Assembly (NCBI GenBank): GCA_016186205.1
Contig: JACPMA010000008.1
Coordinates: 1-64,000 of the forward strand
Direction: 5' to 3'
Length of the DNA: 64,000 bases
Origin: Candidatus Peregrinibacteria bacterium
Lineage (GTDB): Bacteria; Patescibacteriota; Gracilibacteria; UBA1369; UM-FILTER-53-11
A program made the translations under genes and the position numbers. The first letter of the stretch is position 1. Each line of letters opens with the position of its first letter. Below the pieces are notes generated by a model. The model was not told the DNA's origin and searched no databases. It saw nothing but the letters and a program-made list of their open reading frames with translations. Shown piece by piece: positions 2,557 to 45,143 of this stretch.

Positions 2557-3423
2557 ATGAGCAATATCATCAAAAAATCAGAGGTGGCGAAAATGTATCC
2601 GCGCCGCGATCCAAATTCCCACAAAGGACAAAACGGCCGCGTGCTTATTATCGGAGGTTCACTTAATTATTTCGGCGCGCCGATTTTGGCCGGACTCGGC
2701 GCTCTCGGCTCCGGCGCAGATCTCGTATATCTTCTTGTGCCTGAATGCAATTTTGATGTAAGCCGAAGTTTCTATCCGGATTTTATCGTACGCAAGTATC
2801 CCGGAAATTTCGTCAACAGCCGAACGCTTGATTCCGCCGTTGAACTTCTTCCAAATGTCGATGCTGTGCTTATGGGTCCCGGCGTGAGTGAAGATCCCGA
2901 AAGCGTCCGCATTATCGCGCGCATCATCAAAAAAGCGCAATGTCATGTTGTGCTCGATGCAGAAGCCATTCCGGCGATTGCGCAGCTCGGCATGCAAAGC
3001 GCATCGGAACACCAACATCATCTCACAATAACGCCTCATCGCAGAGAGATGGACGAAATTACCGAAGGCGCGCTGCCGGATGATCCTGAAGAACTCGAAA
3101 AAGTTGTCACGGATTTTGCACACAAATGGGGTGTCACGATTTTATTGAAAGGTCCGCGCGACATTATCGCATCTCCTCACCAAACAACGCGCGTTAATAC
3201 AACTGGAAATGCCGGCATGACGGTCGGCGGCACAGGCGATATTCTTGCCGGTTTAACTGCATCGCTTATCGCGCAGCATGCTTCGCCATACGAAGCTTGC
3301 CAAAGCGCCGCGTTTTTAAACGGCGCTGCGGGTGATACGCTCTTGCGTCAAAAAGGATATAACTTTATGGCAACGGACGTCGCGCTTGAACTCCCATACA
3401 CCATTCACAGCATCGTCGGATAA
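2557..3423 (+). CDS. nnrD: ADP/ATP-dependent NAD(P)H-hydrate dehydratase (YjeF C-terminal domain)
   Basis: This ribokinase-fold enzyme dehydrates damaged NAD(P)H (the S-hydrate) back to NAD(P)H. The 288 residues carry the family signatures in order: NGRVLIIGGSxxYxGAPILAGLGALGSGADLVY near the N terminus, the MGPGVSED turn, VLDAEAI, TPHRREM, then LLKGPRDII and the anion-hole segment NTTGNAGMTVGGTGDILAGL. The N-terminal epimerase domain found in fused YjeF proteins is missing, so this is the stand-alone dehydratase. It lies 16 bp after proA and its stop overlaps the next start as TAATG, which suggests one transcript from proA through proC. Confidence 0.93.
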   Translation: MSNIIKKSEVAKMYPRRDPNSHKGQNGRVLIIGGSLNYFGAPILAGLGALGSGADLVYLLVPECNFDVSRSFYPDFIVRKYPGNFVNSRTLDSAVELLPNVDAVLMGPGVSEDPESVRIIARIIKKAQCHVVLDAEAIPAIAQLGMQSASEHQHHLTITPHRREMDEITEGALPDDPEELEKVVTDFAHKWGVTILLKGPRDIIASPHQTTRVNTTGNAGMTVGGTGDILAGLTASLIAQHASPYEACQSAAFLNGAAGDTLLRQKGYNFMATDVALELPYTIHSIVG

Positions 3424-4172
3424 TGATTCGAAAAATTGCCGCAGGCATTCCGTTTTATGAATTTGAGATATTCCAGCAATTTCGCAGAGGGCTTAAGCAT
3501 GCGGTTTTTACCAGACATAGTGATATTTTGACTCCGAAAACGGTACAAACAATTTTTGAAACAAACGCGCACCCAGTCGCTTTCAAAAATCAACTTCATG
3601 GAACAAAACTTCATATTATTCCGGCGCAATTCAATGAAAAAAAGGTTGCCCAGCCGAGGCTGGGCATTAATTGCTTAGCCTCGCTGCGGCTCGGCCTGTT
3701 TGAAGGCGATATTTTTGTAACTTCGGAACAACAAATTCCTCTCGTAATTCGTATCGCCGACTGCGCGAGCATTCTACTTTTTGATCCAACCAAAAAAATT
3801 ATTGCGAATATTCATGCCGGATGGCGCGGTCTTGCAGCAAAAATAATTCATCGCACGATTCAAAAATTGCAGCAGCGTTTTTTGGTACGCCCGGAAAATA
3901 TTTTTGCAGGCATCAGTCCGATGCTCGGGCCATGCTGTAGCCGCTTCACTGAGCCAAAAAAAGAACTTCCTAATTTTCTCCATCAATATATTCTCCAGAA
4001 AAATATGGTCAATCTTTGGAGCATCACTGAAAGCCAACTGCGCGAATGCGGCGTGCTCAAAAAACATATTGAAAATCCACGCATCTGCACATCCTGCAAT
4101 CCGGAAAATTTCTTTTCCTATCGCCGCGAAGGCGATAGCGGCCGCTTCGGCACAGCAATAATGTTACAATAA
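3423..4172 (+). CDS. YfiH/PgeF family laccase-domain protein (polyphenol oxidase family)
   Basis: Members act as copper- or zinc-using multicopper-like oxidoreductases or, for the LACC1/YfiH branch, as purine nucleoside-processing enzymes; in E. coli the protein corrects misincorporation in peptidoglycan. The metal-ligand set is present: H59 in QLHG, C114 in IADCASILLF and H131 in HAGWRG. GPCC and the FFSYRREGDSGRFG tail also fit. Residues 73-92 (KKVAQPRLGINCLASLRLGL) are encoded by a palindromic repeat inserted in frame just before the conserved GDxFVTS segment; family members do not need this stretch. It shares one base with the preceding gene and is followed after 4 bp by proC. Confidence 0.9.
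   Translation: MIRKIAAGIPFYEFEIFQQFRRGLKHAVFTRHSDILTPKTVQTIFETNAHPVAFKNQLHGTKLHIIPAQFNEKKVAQPRLGINCLASLRLGLFEGDIFVTSEQQIPLVIRIADCASILLFDPTKKIIANIHAGWRGLAAKIIHRTIQKLQQRFLVRPENIFAGISPMLGPCCSRFTEPKKELPNFLHQYILQKNMVNLWSITESQLRECGVLKKHIENPRICTSCNPENFFSYRREGDSGRFGTAIMLQ
3641..3698 (+). repeat. double-hairpin palindromic element, copy 1 (in YfiH-family gene)
   Basis: The element starts AAAGGTTGC, has an 8-bp stem GCCCAGCC/GGCTGGGC, the spacer ATTAATTGCTTAG, then an imperfect second hairpin around CTCGCTGCGGCTCGG, and ends CCTG. It lies in frame inside the gene. The frame matches the copy in proC, but the arms of the first stem are different while still complementary. I see no direct target duplication by eye. 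Confidence 0.85.
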
Positions 4173-4176
4173 ATAT

Positions 4177-5040
4177 ATGCGAATCGGAATAATTGGCTGC
4201 GGTCATATGGGATCAGCAATTGCAAAAGCGCTTCTTGGAACATCATGGGTGCGTGCTGTTTTTGCGAGCAATCCGCAAAAACCCCATGTCATGCTGAGCC
4301 TGAGCAAGCCCGAAAAAAAACGCTTCCGCTGGAAAAAGGTTGCGCCTTTCAGGCGCATTAATTGCTTAGCCTCGCTGCGGCTCGGCCTGGTAGACAATAC
4401 CGCTGTCGTTAAAGCAGTAGACATTGTCGTCATAGCTGTCAGGCCAGGCGTCGTTGCTGCGACACTCCAAGAAATACGCCCGTTTTTGAAAAAAAAACAG
4501 ATTTTAATTTCTATTGCAGCAGGAACGCCTCTGAAAAAACTCAAAAAATGGTCAGGGGGGCACAAAAAAATCGTCCGCGTAATGCCAAATTTGCCGGCGC
4601 AGGTTTTTGACGGCATGTCGGTATGGAAACCGGCTCAAGGGCTTAGTAAAAAGGAAAAAACTGCTGTGAAGAAATTTCTGGAATCTTTCGGAAAACAAAT
4701 CGAAGTTAAGGACGAAAAATTGATCGATATGGCTACAGCCATAGGTGGCGGCGGTCCTGCATATACAGCCGCATTCTTGGAAAGCATGACGAAGGCGGCA
4801 AAGCGCATCGGCTTTTCGGAAAGCGACGCTCGTCTTTTAGCGATCCAAACCGTTGATGGCTCGCTTGATTATATAAAAGAAACCGGCATTGAATTTAATC
4901 AACTGAAATCCGCTGTGCAAACAAAAGGTGGAACAACTGAAACCGGCTTTAAAATTCTTAAAAAGAAAAAGTGGCAGGCCACGCTCGAAAAAGCCCTTTT
5001 CGCCGGATATAAAAGAGCCCGAGAAATAAGCAAAAAGTAA
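4177..5040 (+). CDS. proC: pyrroline-5-carboxylate reductase (ProC) with repeat-encoded insertion
   Basis: ProC makes proline from pyrroline-5-carboxylate with NAD(P)H. The Rossmann motif IGIIGCGHMGSAIAKALL is at the N terminus, IVVIAVRP ends the second strand, and the C-terminal half has the family segments VRVMPNLPA, ATAIGGGGPAYTAAFLESM and QTVDGS(LD) followed by LKSAVQTKGGTTETGF. The protein is 287 residues, about 20 longer than usual. The excess is residues 36-71, encoded by two different repeats lying almost side by side: a HVMLSLSKPEKKRF stretch and the KKVAPFRRINCLASLRLGL stretch. Both lie in the surface loop after the dinucleotide-binding second strand, so activity may be preserved. 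Confidence 0.95.
   Translation: MRIGIIGCGHMGSAIAKALLGTSWVRAVFASNPQKPHVMLSLSKPEKKRFRWKKVAPFRRINCLASLRLGLVDNTAVVKAVDIVVIAVRPGVVAATLQEIRPFLKKKQILISIAAGTPLKKLKKWSGGHKKIVRVMPNLPAQVFDGMSVWKPAQGLSKKEKTAVKKFLESFGKQIEVKDEKLIDMATAIGGGGPAYTAAFLESMTKAAKRIGFSESDARLLAIQTVDGSLDYIKETGIEFNQLKSAVQTKGGTTETGFKILKKKKWQATLEKALFAGYKRAREISKK
4286..4313 (+). repeat. short palindromic repeat, family C, inside proC
   Basis: ATGTCATGCTGAGCCTGAGCAAGCC matches, in the opposite orientation, the sequence at the end of the PPDK gene in about 20 of 25 positions. It encodes HVMLSLSKP in proC. From memory, VMLSLSK-type peptides from such repeats are seen in many unrelated bacterial genomes. Confidence 0.65.
4335..4389 (+). repeat. 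double-hairpin palindromic element, copy 2 (in proC)
   Basis: Same architecture as copy 1: AAAGGTTGC, a 6-bp stem GCGCCT/AGGCGC, ATTAATTGCTTAG, then an identical second hairpin CCTCGCTGCGGCTCGGCCTG. It begins at the same codon position as copy 1, so both encode KKVA....INCLASLRLGL. Stem 1 differs in sequence from copy 1 but is again self-complementary. Confidence 0.85.
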
Positions 5041-7347: not shown

Positions 7348-8506
7348 ACCGCTCAAAAATCTGCGCATCGGAATGGCGCTCCATGTTACAAAAGAAACCG
7401 GCATTTTGGTTGAAACGTTGATTGCCGGCGGCGCGCAGGTTGCAATTGCAAGCTGCAATCCCCTTTCCACTCAAGATGACGTCGCCGCCTATCTTGCCAA
7501 AAAAGGAATCGCTGTTTTTGCATATAAAGGCGAATCTAAATCAGATTATTACAAATTTATTAAAGCTGTGGTCGCTTTTAAGCCAAATTTGACAATTGAT
7601 GATGGATGTGACCTTGTATCAGAAATCCATCTCCGTCACAAAAACCTCATTCCAGATATTATCGGCGGCTGCGAAGAAACAACTACAGGTATCAATCGGT
7701 TAAAAGCTATGGAAAAAGACGGCGCATTAAAATATCCCATGGTCGCCGTGAACGATAATAAAACAAAACACCTTTTTGACAATTATTATGGGACCGGCCA
7801 GTCAACTTGGGATGGAATTTTGCGCGCGACGAGCATTCTTGTTGCTGGAAAAACAGTGGTAGTTGCGGGCTATGGCGATTGCGGGCATGGAATTGCTTTA
7901 CGCGCAGCCGGCATGGGCGCCCATGTAGTGGTAACAGAAATTGATCCGGTAAGAGCTTTAAAAGCCGCCATGGACGGTTTTCGCGTGATGACTATGGATA
8001 AAGCATGCAAAATCGGCGATGTATTTGTGACTGCAACCGGCGGAAAACATATCATCACGGCAACGCACATGAAACATATGAAATCCGGTGCAATGCTTGC
8101 AAACAGCGGACATTTTAATATTGAAATCGACATTGATGGACTCGAAAAAATCGCTGTCCGTAAAAAACAAATCCGTGAGTTTGTCGAAGAATATGTCATT
8201 GCGAGCGGAGCGAAGCAATCTACTAAAAAAATCTATCTCCTCGCACAAGGCCGTCTTGTAAATCTCGCAGCAGCAGAAGGCCATCCTTCCGAAGTTATGG
8301 ATCTTTCATTTTGCGGCCAAGCGCTCGCGTGCGAATGGCTTCAAAAAAATAGCGGCGGCCAACGCCTTCAGCCTAAAGTTTATGTGCTTCCGGAAGCCGT
8401 TGACCAAGAAATCGCTCGACTAAAACTAAAAACGCTCGGACTTCGCATCGATACGTTGACCGAAGAACAAAATAAATATGCCTCTTCTTGGCAAGAAGGA
8501 ACATAA
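7232..8506 (+). CDS. ahcY: S-adenosylhomocysteine hydrolase (AhcY), repeat inserted in frame
   Basis: AhcY splits S-adenosylhomocysteine to adenosine and homocysteine, completing the methyl cycle with metK. The start is supported by family-like [12 protein letters not shown]...WARQHMPAL. The NAD site is [13 protein letters not shown], and [27 protein letters not shown] and [18 protein letters not shown] are present. The compact form ending [12 protein letters not shown] resembles archaeal/Thermotoga-type enzymes. Residues 320-331 ([12 protein letters not shown]) are encoded by a short repeat inserted in the loop where relatives have a few residues between REFVEE and the [12 protein letters not shown] strand. 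An almost identical repeat copy begins right after this gene's stop codon. Confidence 0.96.
8191..8224 (+). repeat. short palindromic repeat, family B, inside ahcY
   Basis: ATATGTCATTGCGAGCG followed by GAGCGAAGCAATCTACT. It differs at one base from the copy 300 bp downstream. ATTGC and GCAAT form the ends of a small imperfect hairpin. It keeps the ahcY frame. Confidence 0.8.
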
Positions 8507-8540
8507 ATATGTCATTGCGAGCGAAGCGAAGCAATCTACT
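8507..8540 (+). repeat. short palindromic repeat, family B, between ahcY and the next gene
   Basis: 33 of 34 bases match the copy inside ahcY. It starts directly after the ahcY TAA and supplies the TAG stop (CTA on this strand) of the convergent secreted-protein gene. It may act as a two-way hairpin between convergent transcripts. Confidence 0.8.
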
Positions 8541-24345: not shown

Positions 24346-24402
24346 AAAGGTTGCGCCATGTAGGCGCATTAATTAATTAGCACATGCTTTGCATGTGCCT
24401 AG
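24346..24402 (+). repeat. double-hairpin palindromic element, copy 3 (gdhA leader)
   Basis: AAAGGTTGC, stem GCGCC/GGCGC, ATTAATTAATTAG, then a perfect 8-bp hairpin GCACATGC-TTT-GCATGTGC and CCTAG. The framework matches copies 1 and 2, while stem 2 has a different but fully complementary sequence. It lies between a TACAAT box (24337-24342) and the gdhA start and would fold in the mRNA leader. Confidence 0.8.
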
Positions 24403-24403
24403 T

Positions 24404-25678
24404 ATGAGTTTCTTTCAAAATACCCTTGATCTGATCGAAAAAGCTTCGAAACTCATGAAGCTCGATCTGAACGTCAAGGAAATTTTGAGCAATCCGAATC
24501 GAATCATTGAAGTCAGCCTTCCGATAAAAATGGATAGCGGCAAGGTGAAGGTTTTTCGCGGATTCCGCGTGCAGCATAATGACCTTGCCGGACCATATAA
24601 AGGAGGAATTAGATATCATCCACAAGTAGATATGGAAGAAGTCAAGGCGCTTGCCACGCTTATGACTTTTAAGTGCGCTGTTGTCGGTTTGCCTCTTGGG
24701 GGCGGGAAAGGTGGAGTAATTGTTGATCCAAAAAGTCTCTCGCTATCCGAACTTGAACGGCTTACGAGAAAATATGCCGAACGCATTGCGCCATTTATCG
24801 GCCCGGAAGTTGATGTGCCTGCGCCGGATGTTAATACGGACGCACAAATCATGGCTTGGATAGCCGACGAGTATTCAAAAGTAACCGGTAAAAATGCCCT
24901 TGGGGTAGTCACCGGAAAACCATTGCCGGTAGGCGGATCTCTTGGTCGGGAAAAAGCCACAGCGCGCGGCGGCCATTATGTACTCTCGGAAATAGTGAAA
25001 GAAAAAAATATTGATCCAAAAAACACAACAATAGTTATCCAGGGATTTGGGAATGCCGGTGCAAATGCGGCACGTATTTTAGATGAAGACGGCTATAAGA
25101 TTATCGCCGCTTCAGACTCCAAAGGAGGAATTTATTGCAAGGACGGTATTCATGCCATAAAAGCTATTCAATGCAAGATGGAAAAAGGTTCTATCCACGA
25201 ATGCACAATAGGAGGCGCAGTAGATTACCATGTATCAAAAGGAGCAACTTGTCAAAGAATTACAAATGAGGAACTGCTCGAATTGGAATGCGATATTTTA
25301 ATTCTTTCAGCTATGGAAAACCAAGTAACTGGAAAAAATGCTGCCAAGATTAAGGCAAAAATGATTCTTGAACTTGCTAACGGCCCAATGGATCAAGAAG
25401 CAGATGAAATTCTTGAAAAACGTGGAATAACCGTAATCCCTGATATTTTGGCAAATGCCGGCGGTGTAACAGTAAGTTATTTTGAACTTGTCCAGAATCA
25501 AATGAATTATTATTGGCCAAAAGATGAAATTCAGCAAAGGTTAAAAGTAATTATGGTAAATGGATGGAATCGGGTAAAAGAAGTTGCAGCGCAATATAAA
25601 TGCACGCTCCGGATGGCGGCGTTTATCACAGCGCTTTCGCGTCTTTCGGAGTTGATGAAACTTCGCGGGTCAGTTTAG
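24404..25678 (+). CDS. gdhA: glutamate dehydrogenase (Glu/Leu/Phe/Val family)
   Basis: GDH links ammonia and 2-oxoglutarate to glutamate with NAD(P)H. Signatures: VFRGFRVQHNDLAGPYKGGIRYHP, catalytic-lysine region TFKCAVVGLPLGGGKGG, PAPDVNTDAQIMAWIADEYS, and the Rossmann GFGNAGANAARIL in the second domain. Family homology starts at MSFFQNTLDLIEKA, so I choose the ATG five codons inside the ORF; the earlier ATG belongs to the palindromic repeat that forms the leader. The protein is 424 residues, normal for the family. PPDK follows on the same strand. Confidence 0.95.
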   Translation: MSFFQNTLDLIEKASKLMKLDLNVKEILSNPNRIIEVSLPIKMDSGKVKVFRGFRVQHNDLAGPYKGGIRYHPQVDMEEVKALATLMTFKCAVVGLPLGGGKGGVIVDPKSLSLSELERLTRKYAERIAPFIGPEVDVPAPDVNTDAQIMAWIADEYSKVTGKNALGVVTGKPLPVGGSLGREKATARGGHYVLSEIVKEKNIDPKNTTIVIQGFGNAGANAARILDEDGYKIIAASDSKGGIYCKDGIHAIKAIQCKMEKGSIHECTIGGAVDYHVSKGATCQRITNEELLELECDILILSAMENQVTGKNAAKIKAKMILELANGPMDQEADEILEKRGITVIPDILANAGGVTVSYFELVQNQMNYYWPKDEIQQRLKVIMVNGWNRVKEVAAQYKCTLRMAAFITALSRLSELMKLRGSV

Positions 25679-42865: not shown

Positions 42866-43528
42866 CTAAGGAGCCCATGGATCCATTGCCTTAGGAGGAG
42901 TAGAATCCTCCGGAGATGAAGGAGCCCATGGATCCATTGCCTTAGGAGGAGTAAAATCCTCGAGAGATGTATGGCTTTCAAATGTACCATCTGGGTTTAG
43001 AGTAATATCCATTTTGCGTACTTTCTCGTTAGAAGGTTGATATTCTACATGAAGAAGCAAGCTACCAGGTTCATCACCGAAAGGAAACAAACCTTTAACC
43101 GAGCTGCTGGTTTTAAGTTTGCAATATAACAAATTTTGAAAGTCAATATTTAGATCGAGTTCTGCATTAAATTGTTTCGCAAGATCAAGCTCTTCCTCTC
43201 TAATGGATTCGTAACTTGGATTTGTCTCTGGCATGAATTCCCCACGTTTGAAACGCTCGACCCATATTCTATATAGTTCATCACGTTTTTTTTCTAGTTT
43301 CCGAACTATATCAAAGCGATCCTTAAATTTAATTTGCTGTAGTCTTTCCAGTCCGCTATTGGCTGCACCAAGAACATTCTTTCCAAGTGCTTGTTGAGAT
43401 ATTTCTGGTGGTCCATCAACTTGCAGTGATTCTGAAGCTGCTGGCGACGCATCTTTTCTTTCCAAAAAAATCAAACGTTGATGTGCAGCACATAAAAAAT
43501 TGCCCAGAAAACAATTTAATAATTGCAT
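42866..43528 (-). CDS. hypothetical protein with tandem C-terminal 17-residue repeat
   Basis: The 220-residue product shows a helical, charged middle part (FKDRFDIVRKLEKKRDELYRIWVERFKRGEF) and a beta-like segment (GSLLLHVEYQPSNEKVRKMDITLNPDGTFESH). It ends with two copies of a 17-residue unit (SPEDSTPPKAMDPWAP). I do not recognise a family. Upstream on its strand are TTGACA (43580-43585) and, after 17 bp, TACGAT, with a TATAAT slightly further on, so it seems to have its own promoter. Confidence 0.65.
   Translation of the reverse strand: MQLLNCFLGNFLCAAHQRLIFLERKDASPAASESLQVDGPPEISQQALGKNVLGAANSGLERLQQIKFKDRFDIVRKLEKKRDELYRIWVERFKRGEFMPETNPSYESIREEELDLAKQFNAELDLNIDFQNLLYCKLKTSSSVKGLFPFGDEPGSLLLHVEYQPSNEKVRKMDITLNPDGTFESHTSLEDFTPPKAMDPWAPSSPEDSTPPKAMDPWAP
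42870..42971 (-). repeat. 51-bp tandem repeat, two copies
   Basis: GGAGCCCATGGATCCATTGCCTTAGGAGGAGTA... occurs at 42870 and again at 42921, with a few differences near the second end. The unit is a multiple of 3 and duplicates 17 codons without breaking the frame. Confidence 0.85.
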
Positions 43529-44967: not shown

Positions 44968-44994
44968 GAATTATGAATTACTAATGATGAATGA

Positions 44995-45060
44995 TGAATT
45001 TTTCATGAAATTTTCATGAACTGCAAATGAATTTTTCATGAAATTTTCATGAACTGCAAA
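44995..45060. repeat. 33-bp direct repeats with TTTCATGAAA palindromes upstream of dnaB
   Basis: TGAATTTTTCATGAAATTTTCATGAACTGCAAA occurs twice head to tail, and a third copy starts (TGAACT). Each unit contains TTTCATGAAA and TTTTCATGAA. They begin 28 bp before the dnaB start and could be operator sites. Confidence 0.75.
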
Positions 45061-45143
45061 TGAACTCGGTTGAAAGATTTACGGGATGATTTTTGGTATG
45101 TGCGAAAGATGTGCAAAAGATGCGTTTTCGTTTACCGCGGCAG

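Follow-up and report, generated by a model that had tools for sequence, protein, structure and literature searches.

Why should two adjacent genes for conserved enzymes carry the same short peptide, in frame, in the genome of a Candidatus Peregrinibacteria bacterium? The question arose in the window, by which we mean the whole stretch of 64,000 nucleotides analysed (contig JACPMA010000008.1, positions 1 to 64,000). A sequence-only reading had described there a double-hairpin palindromic element inside yfiH and proC and had likened it to the Rickettsia palindromic elements (RPEs). Both copies are present and in frame as described, and a third copy lies outside genes. The features are as follows:

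3423..4172, forward strand: host gene yfiH (peptidoglycan editing factor PgeF family), PF02578 above cut-off
3642..3698, forward strand: element copy 1, 57 nt, in frame in yfiH/pgeF; adds KVAQPRLGINCLASLRLGL, residues 74-92
3647..3666, forward strand: hairpin 1 of copy 1 (TGCCCAGCC..GGCTGGGCA), by reading and by covariation of helix 1
3676..3697, forward strand: hairpin 2 of copy 1, imperfect, by reading; helices 2 and 3 of the covariation analysis
4177..5040, forward strand: host gene proC (pyrroline-5-carboxylate reductase), by family models (Pfam, NCBIfam) and Foldseek
4336..4389, forward strand: element copy 2, 54 nt, in frame in proC; adds KVAPFRRINCLASLRLGL, residues 54-71
4341..4357, forward strand: hairpin 1 of copy 2 (TGCGCC..GGCGCA), by reading and by covariation
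24347..24401, forward strand: element copy 3, 55 nt, extragenic; ends 2 nt before an ATG and differs in the stem of hairpin 2 (CACATGC/GCATGTG)
24404..25678, forward strand: glutamate-dehydrogenase-like (gdh-like) gene directly 3' of copy 3, by reading of the protein

Besides its PF02578 match, YfiH scored 118.8 bits against TIGR00726, under the curated cut-off of 141. The peptide said to recur in both enzymes does so, as KKVAQPRLGINCLASLRLGL in YfiH and KKVAPFRRINCLASLRLGL in ProC, and stem 1 differs between the two copies yet is self-complementary in each of them. The copies have an exact 35-mer in common (3664-3698 = 4355-4389), which was obtained in 0 of 100 dinucleotide shuffles. The pattern AAAGGTTGC-N-GCATTAATT has three matches in the window versus 0.01 expected, with as many in none of 100 shuffles, which excludes a chance repeat. 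The ProC stretch VMLSLSKP was also considered as a possible second insert; relatives carry a comparable stretch, PHLSVSASQKKR, so that a short gain is the most it can represent. The window also contains a different repeat, GTCATTGCGAGCGRAGCGAAGCAATC, at 8190-8224 and 8506-8540, which resembles CGTC-tagged REPs and is found six times genome-wide when up to 3 mismatches are allowed; one of its two window copies lies in frame within ahcY (peptide VIASGAKQS) and the other is located at the ahcY stop codon. Short tandem repeats at 44994-45070 and 42868-42969 (33-nt and 51-nt units) are unrelated to the element.

The unit is composed of AAGGTTGC-hairpin 1-GCATTAATTGCTTAG-hairpin 2-CCTR and measures 54 nt from AAGG to CCTR; the consensus of the genome that contains the window (hereafter the home genome), also of 54 nt, is written AAGGTTGC(hairpin 1)GCATTAATTNCTTAG(hairpin 2)CCTR, and the yfiH copy owes its 57 nt to a longer stem 1. 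Of the two hairpins originally proposed, the first is clearly upheld by covariation. In 75 distinct copies from the home genome and three other genomes (G002, G055 and G034), helix 1 was formed in 99% of cells, with compensatory changes at five of its six pairs. The whole structure was 86.5% paired versus 28-47% in slid controls (shuffled controls were also run), figures that lean towards the structure because the alignment was fitted to the model. Hairpin 2 is weaker, with two middle pairs left unformed in roughly 50 of 68 sequences; it is imperfect in both reported copies but perfect in some others (CCGAGC..GCTCGG), and entire replacements of stem 2 were found, such as the one in copy 3. When folded alone as RNA, the yfiH copy preferred one long hairpin and the proC copy folded no better than its shuffles; the two-hairpin fold is derived from covariation over many copies and not from the folding energy of these two. 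Some copies of G002 have a third hairpin and reach 96 nt (L085, L090, L092); these three, together with L072 and L082, are longer, contain at least one extra hairpin between hairpin 1 and the 3' end, and look as if the element had grown by nesting or by the addition of modules. Rfam family models gave no credible match to the element, and an Rfam family was rejected as its identity.

A covariance model built from 12 copies recovered 33 copies at E<2.2e-4 in the home genome (1.39 Mb), the genome-wide work consisting of this profile search and of the stretches around the copies. G002, which belongs to a sister genus of the same family, holds 38-44 copies, and the search of four further genomes of this family returned none. 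Copies of a diverged type, GTTGTGG..CCACGTT.TTGCTTAGC, are present in G055 (13 copies), G034 (8), G040 (5) and G286 (12), as well as in one or two copies in few other genomes among the 353 of the class that were searched. Over the phylum, a broad model matched 2 of 380 sampled genomes, the home genome included; absences in these large searches are not firm because the filters were strict. No exact match to the pattern was obtained in viral contigs, nor in the GTDB genome_contigs, a set from which the home genome and near records are possibly absent.

Copies within genes occur in either orientation. Sense copies read KVAPxGRINCLASLRLGL and are found in YfiH, ProC, TsaD, DHFR, NadB and the signal peptide of an SLH protein, and antisense copies, which had escaped the sequence-only reading, read RPSRSEAKQLMRPKGAT and are found in AtpG, FolD, an alpha-2-macroglobulin-like protein, a methyltransferase and others (host families were named via Pfam and NCBIfam, solved relatives, or orthology). 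At least six conserved enzymes carry the insert in frame, each with a gain of about 14-21 amino acids. Translation of the consensus gives one stop-free frame per strand, the one used by the genic copies, and the other two frames contain stops. The length was divisible by three in 23 of 28 genic copies versus 14 of 35 others (Fisher P=9e-4), which is supporting evidence rather than proof, because the assignment to genes via open reading frames favours multiples of three. For this comparison two copies, L017 and L016, were counted as extragenic because their genes probably start after the element despite open frames through it, and the copy at the gene start of LexA (L033) was kept in the genic set. 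Outside genes, by contrast, the copies contain stop codons and differ in length in ways that would shift the frame. The stop-free frames and the length bias of genic copies are indirect signs that the inserted peptide may be translated and present in the protein.

The copy in NadB (L028, C18:155859-155914 of the home genome) is placed directly before the EGGH motif common to the solved E. coli enzyme. This region is probably near the active site, so the enzyme may be impaired. The NadB insert, beside a conserved motif, is not obviously in a neutral loop, which counts against the interpretation given below. In the SLH-domain protein, the copy (L031, C2:53274-53330) lies within an apparent signal peptide, to whose hydrophobic core its hydrophobic ICLASLWLGL apparently contributes. 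A further copy, antisense and located at the beginning of lexA (L033, C3:2259-2316), extends the N-terminus and may even supply the start codon.

Structure models of the two window enzymes place the insert in a loop-like position. The AlphaFold model of ProC (pLDDT 91) has a single segment below 50, residues 58-70, within the insert, and that of YfiH (pLDDT 84) likewise has only one, residues 73-91, which is the insert; these low values are partly expected because the segment is unique to the query. With the models as queries, Foldseek recovered P5CR and YfiH/YlmD structures.

Relatives show empty sites. Orthologues were recovered from as many as nine other genomes, and for all six proteins tested, namely YfiH, ProC, TsaD, DHFR (FolA), AtpG and FolD, they lack the insert; for TsaD and FolA the difference from the relatives is exactly 18 codons (54 nt). 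The loop in question contains other, unrelated residues in one distant TsaD and in one AtpG. In the operon nnrD-yfiH-proC, YfiH and ProC are filled and NnrD is empty in the home genome, and in G002 it is NnrD that contains a 20-aa element, with YfiH and ProC empty. Around filled loci, the flanking sequences of these two genomes mostly show no homology to each other, and the typA leader is the only locus filled at the same place in the two. The leader of an ftsH-like gene (by reading; 83% identical protein) is filled at different places, by L025 in the home genome and by L084 in G002, which looks like two independent insertions. Neither of the outcomes named beforehand as adverse, that is, relatives with the peptide but no repeat, or no further copies, occurred.

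The element is thus multicopy and dispersed, occupies different sites in related genomes, adds a clean 54 nt (18 codons) where the sites are best resolved, and combines a first hairpin, at least, that is kept by covariation with a single stop-free consensus frame per strand. We interpret it as a family of non-autonomous mobile DNA elements of very small size, RPE- or MITE-like, with two adjacent hairpins and the ends AAGG...CCTR, and we put the probability of this reading at roughly 85%. A trans-acting enzyme with the hairpins as its substrate would copy the element to new places, and most insertions into genes would be purged by selection. The genic copies that survive would be those with a compatible frame, mostly with a multiple of three bases, and situated in loops, so that the host enzyme would be extended by some 18 unstructured residues. 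For extragenic copies, the slot right before a start codon would be a frequent surviving position. For the host, the element is probably neutral to slightly harmful and maintained by its own spread.

The preference for that slot was not part of the sequence-only reading. Of the 71 copies in the home genome and G002, 11 are followed after 0-3 nt by an ATG with an open frame of at least 100 codons, where 0.55 would be expected from ATG density; copies inside genes were not scored as hits. Antisense copies are likewise found 0-9 nt from ATGs, the diverged type included. In the window, where ORF starts were taken as the first ATG, a motif like the Shine-Dalgarno (SD) sequence precedes 4 of 48 starts, not far from what chance would give (random 5.8%), and a -10-like hexamer is found upstream of 12 of the 38 starts with intergenic sequence upstream (random 9%), suggesting that initiation of these genes is SD-poor or leaderless. 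Most simply, insertions would be tolerated between promoter and ATG, the host relying little on SD: because host genes mostly have no Shine-Dalgarno sequence, an insertion into the leader separates none from the ATG.

It is possible that the element acts as a leader. We regard as rather doubtful the idea of a mobile portable leader that would be inserted between the promoter and the start codon of SD-less, in many cases perhaps leaderless, genes and whose folded hairpins would support initiation; if it were true, the same 54 nt could serve as a 5' UTR and, within a gene, encode 18 tolerated residues on either strand. We likewise consider it unlikely that the element is a functional RNA or regulatory 5' leader, selected before start codons for controlling or allowing initiation in SD-poor genes, with the genic copies as by-products. 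Such a leader would fit the clustering of sense copies at 0-3 nt before ATGs, the typA leader filled at the same place in two genera, the covariation of the hairpins and the -10-like boxes that, by reading, lie shortly upstream of the typA, gdh and polA copies. However, many copies lie within unrelated genes on either strand, most filled sites are not common to the home genome and G002, antisense copies abut start codons too, no Rfam family matches, and a tolerated slot accounts for the same facts.

Regarding the enzyme that would move the element, a REP-type TnpA transposase had been proposed as something to look for, and the search came back empty: no Y1_Tnp match was found in the home assembly (about 92% complete), nor in the carriers G055 and G034. 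G002 holds Y1_Tnp genes, but the intact one (L061) was rejected as mobiliser, being IS200-like, with an end hairpin of its own and no element adjoining. That a REP-associated tyrosine transposase (RAYT) moves the copies, and that the family is an ordinary REP, is consequently improbable, in spite of the short palindromes, of the Y1_Tnp genes in G002 and of one G002 subtype with GTAG before hairpin 2; the copies of the home genome have TTAG at this tag, not GTAG or CGTC. No consistent target-site duplication was found at the resolved sites. At the termini, only the AGG/CCT ends pair, and the left flanks are A-rich in the home genome and G002. In the same two genomes, 33 of 56 copies are followed by G at +3 and 29 of 56 by A at +4, which may reflect a bias at the level of the target or of the protein.

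We see very little chance that the element, as an intron or a bypassing element, is removed after transcription or skipped in translation and never appears in the protein. Although a strongly structured element within essential-type enzymes, and next to a conserved motif in NadB, could be accommodated in this way, an excised element would not need to be stop-free in the gene frame or to have a length that is mostly a multiple of three, and no splice or intron family matched. An ancestral protein motif common to both enzymes is excluded by the empty orthologues, and this origin or a chance or assembly repeat can practically be dismissed, as copies lie on many contigs and in independent genomes and are also extragenic and antisense.

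Taking the element as mobile two-hairpin DNA, we compared it with known families. RPEs are dispersed palindromes that sit in frame in unrelated conserved genes, encode a recurring peptide and are also intergenic; their homologues lack the insert, and no mobiliser is named in the summaries consulted (PMC2229807, PMC10969869, on Ogata 2000 and 2002). With these and related Wolbachia elements our element has in common the in-frame, dispersed, peptide-encoding insertion absent from homologues, and the RPE-like reading draws support from the genome-wide copies, the empty sites in relatives and the loop-like position in the models. RPEs, however, are 105-146 bp long and form one long stem-loop with terminal inverted repeats (PMC2229807), whereas this element has 54 nt and two separate hairpins and occurs in few Patescibacteria genomes. 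By length and architecture, the features compared, it is apparently unrelated to RPEs, in a different phylum. Among the NCBIfam models listed for five proteins of the window or genome none bears an RPE name, a result that would count only if NCBIfam includes such models.

REPs of the GTAG and CGTC superfamilies are short palindromes that are sometimes found in ORFs, where dimers encode 20-30 aa, some of them N-terminal; they are single palindromes of 20-40 bp with a GTAG or CGTC tag, are linked to a RAYT and lie mostly downstream of genes (PMC3733652). Our element departs from them in its tag, in its two hairpins, in the lack of a RAYT in the home assembly and in the position of its extragenic copies, often before a start codon. 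MITEs with ORFs (ERIC/RU-1, YPAL/RU-2) are non-autonomous and form in-frame fusions, some in signal peptides; they measure 100-170 bp, have mostly TA ends and in several cases target duplications (PMC2229807, PMC2759123). The element resembles them in the in-frame fusion (compare the copy in the signal peptide of the SLH-domain protein), but it is shorter, about 45-65% G+C and without a clear duplication.

Many dispersed palindromic copies in one genome (33), in frame in unrelated conserved genes and absent from orthologues (six of six proteins, plus NnrD in G002), are hallmarks of a protein-coding palindromic repeat, a kind in which the inserted peptide is also translated into the protein, and the best reading is that the element belongs to this kind as a new family. 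No report of such an element in Patescibacteria was found in the open-access literature, to which our search was confined, in agreement with the initial claim that, as far as known, none had been described.

Coding palindromes are best known from intracellular Alphaproteobacteria, and intragenic REPs are known elsewhere. A family in streamlined Patescibacteria, with another length and architecture and apparently no RAYT, would suggest that the invasion of protein genes by hairpins arose more than once. For annotators, it is a warning that loops of this sort are element-derived. Dozens of filled and empty gene pairs within one family would make it testable what moves such elements and what a loop of 18 residues costs the host enzyme.
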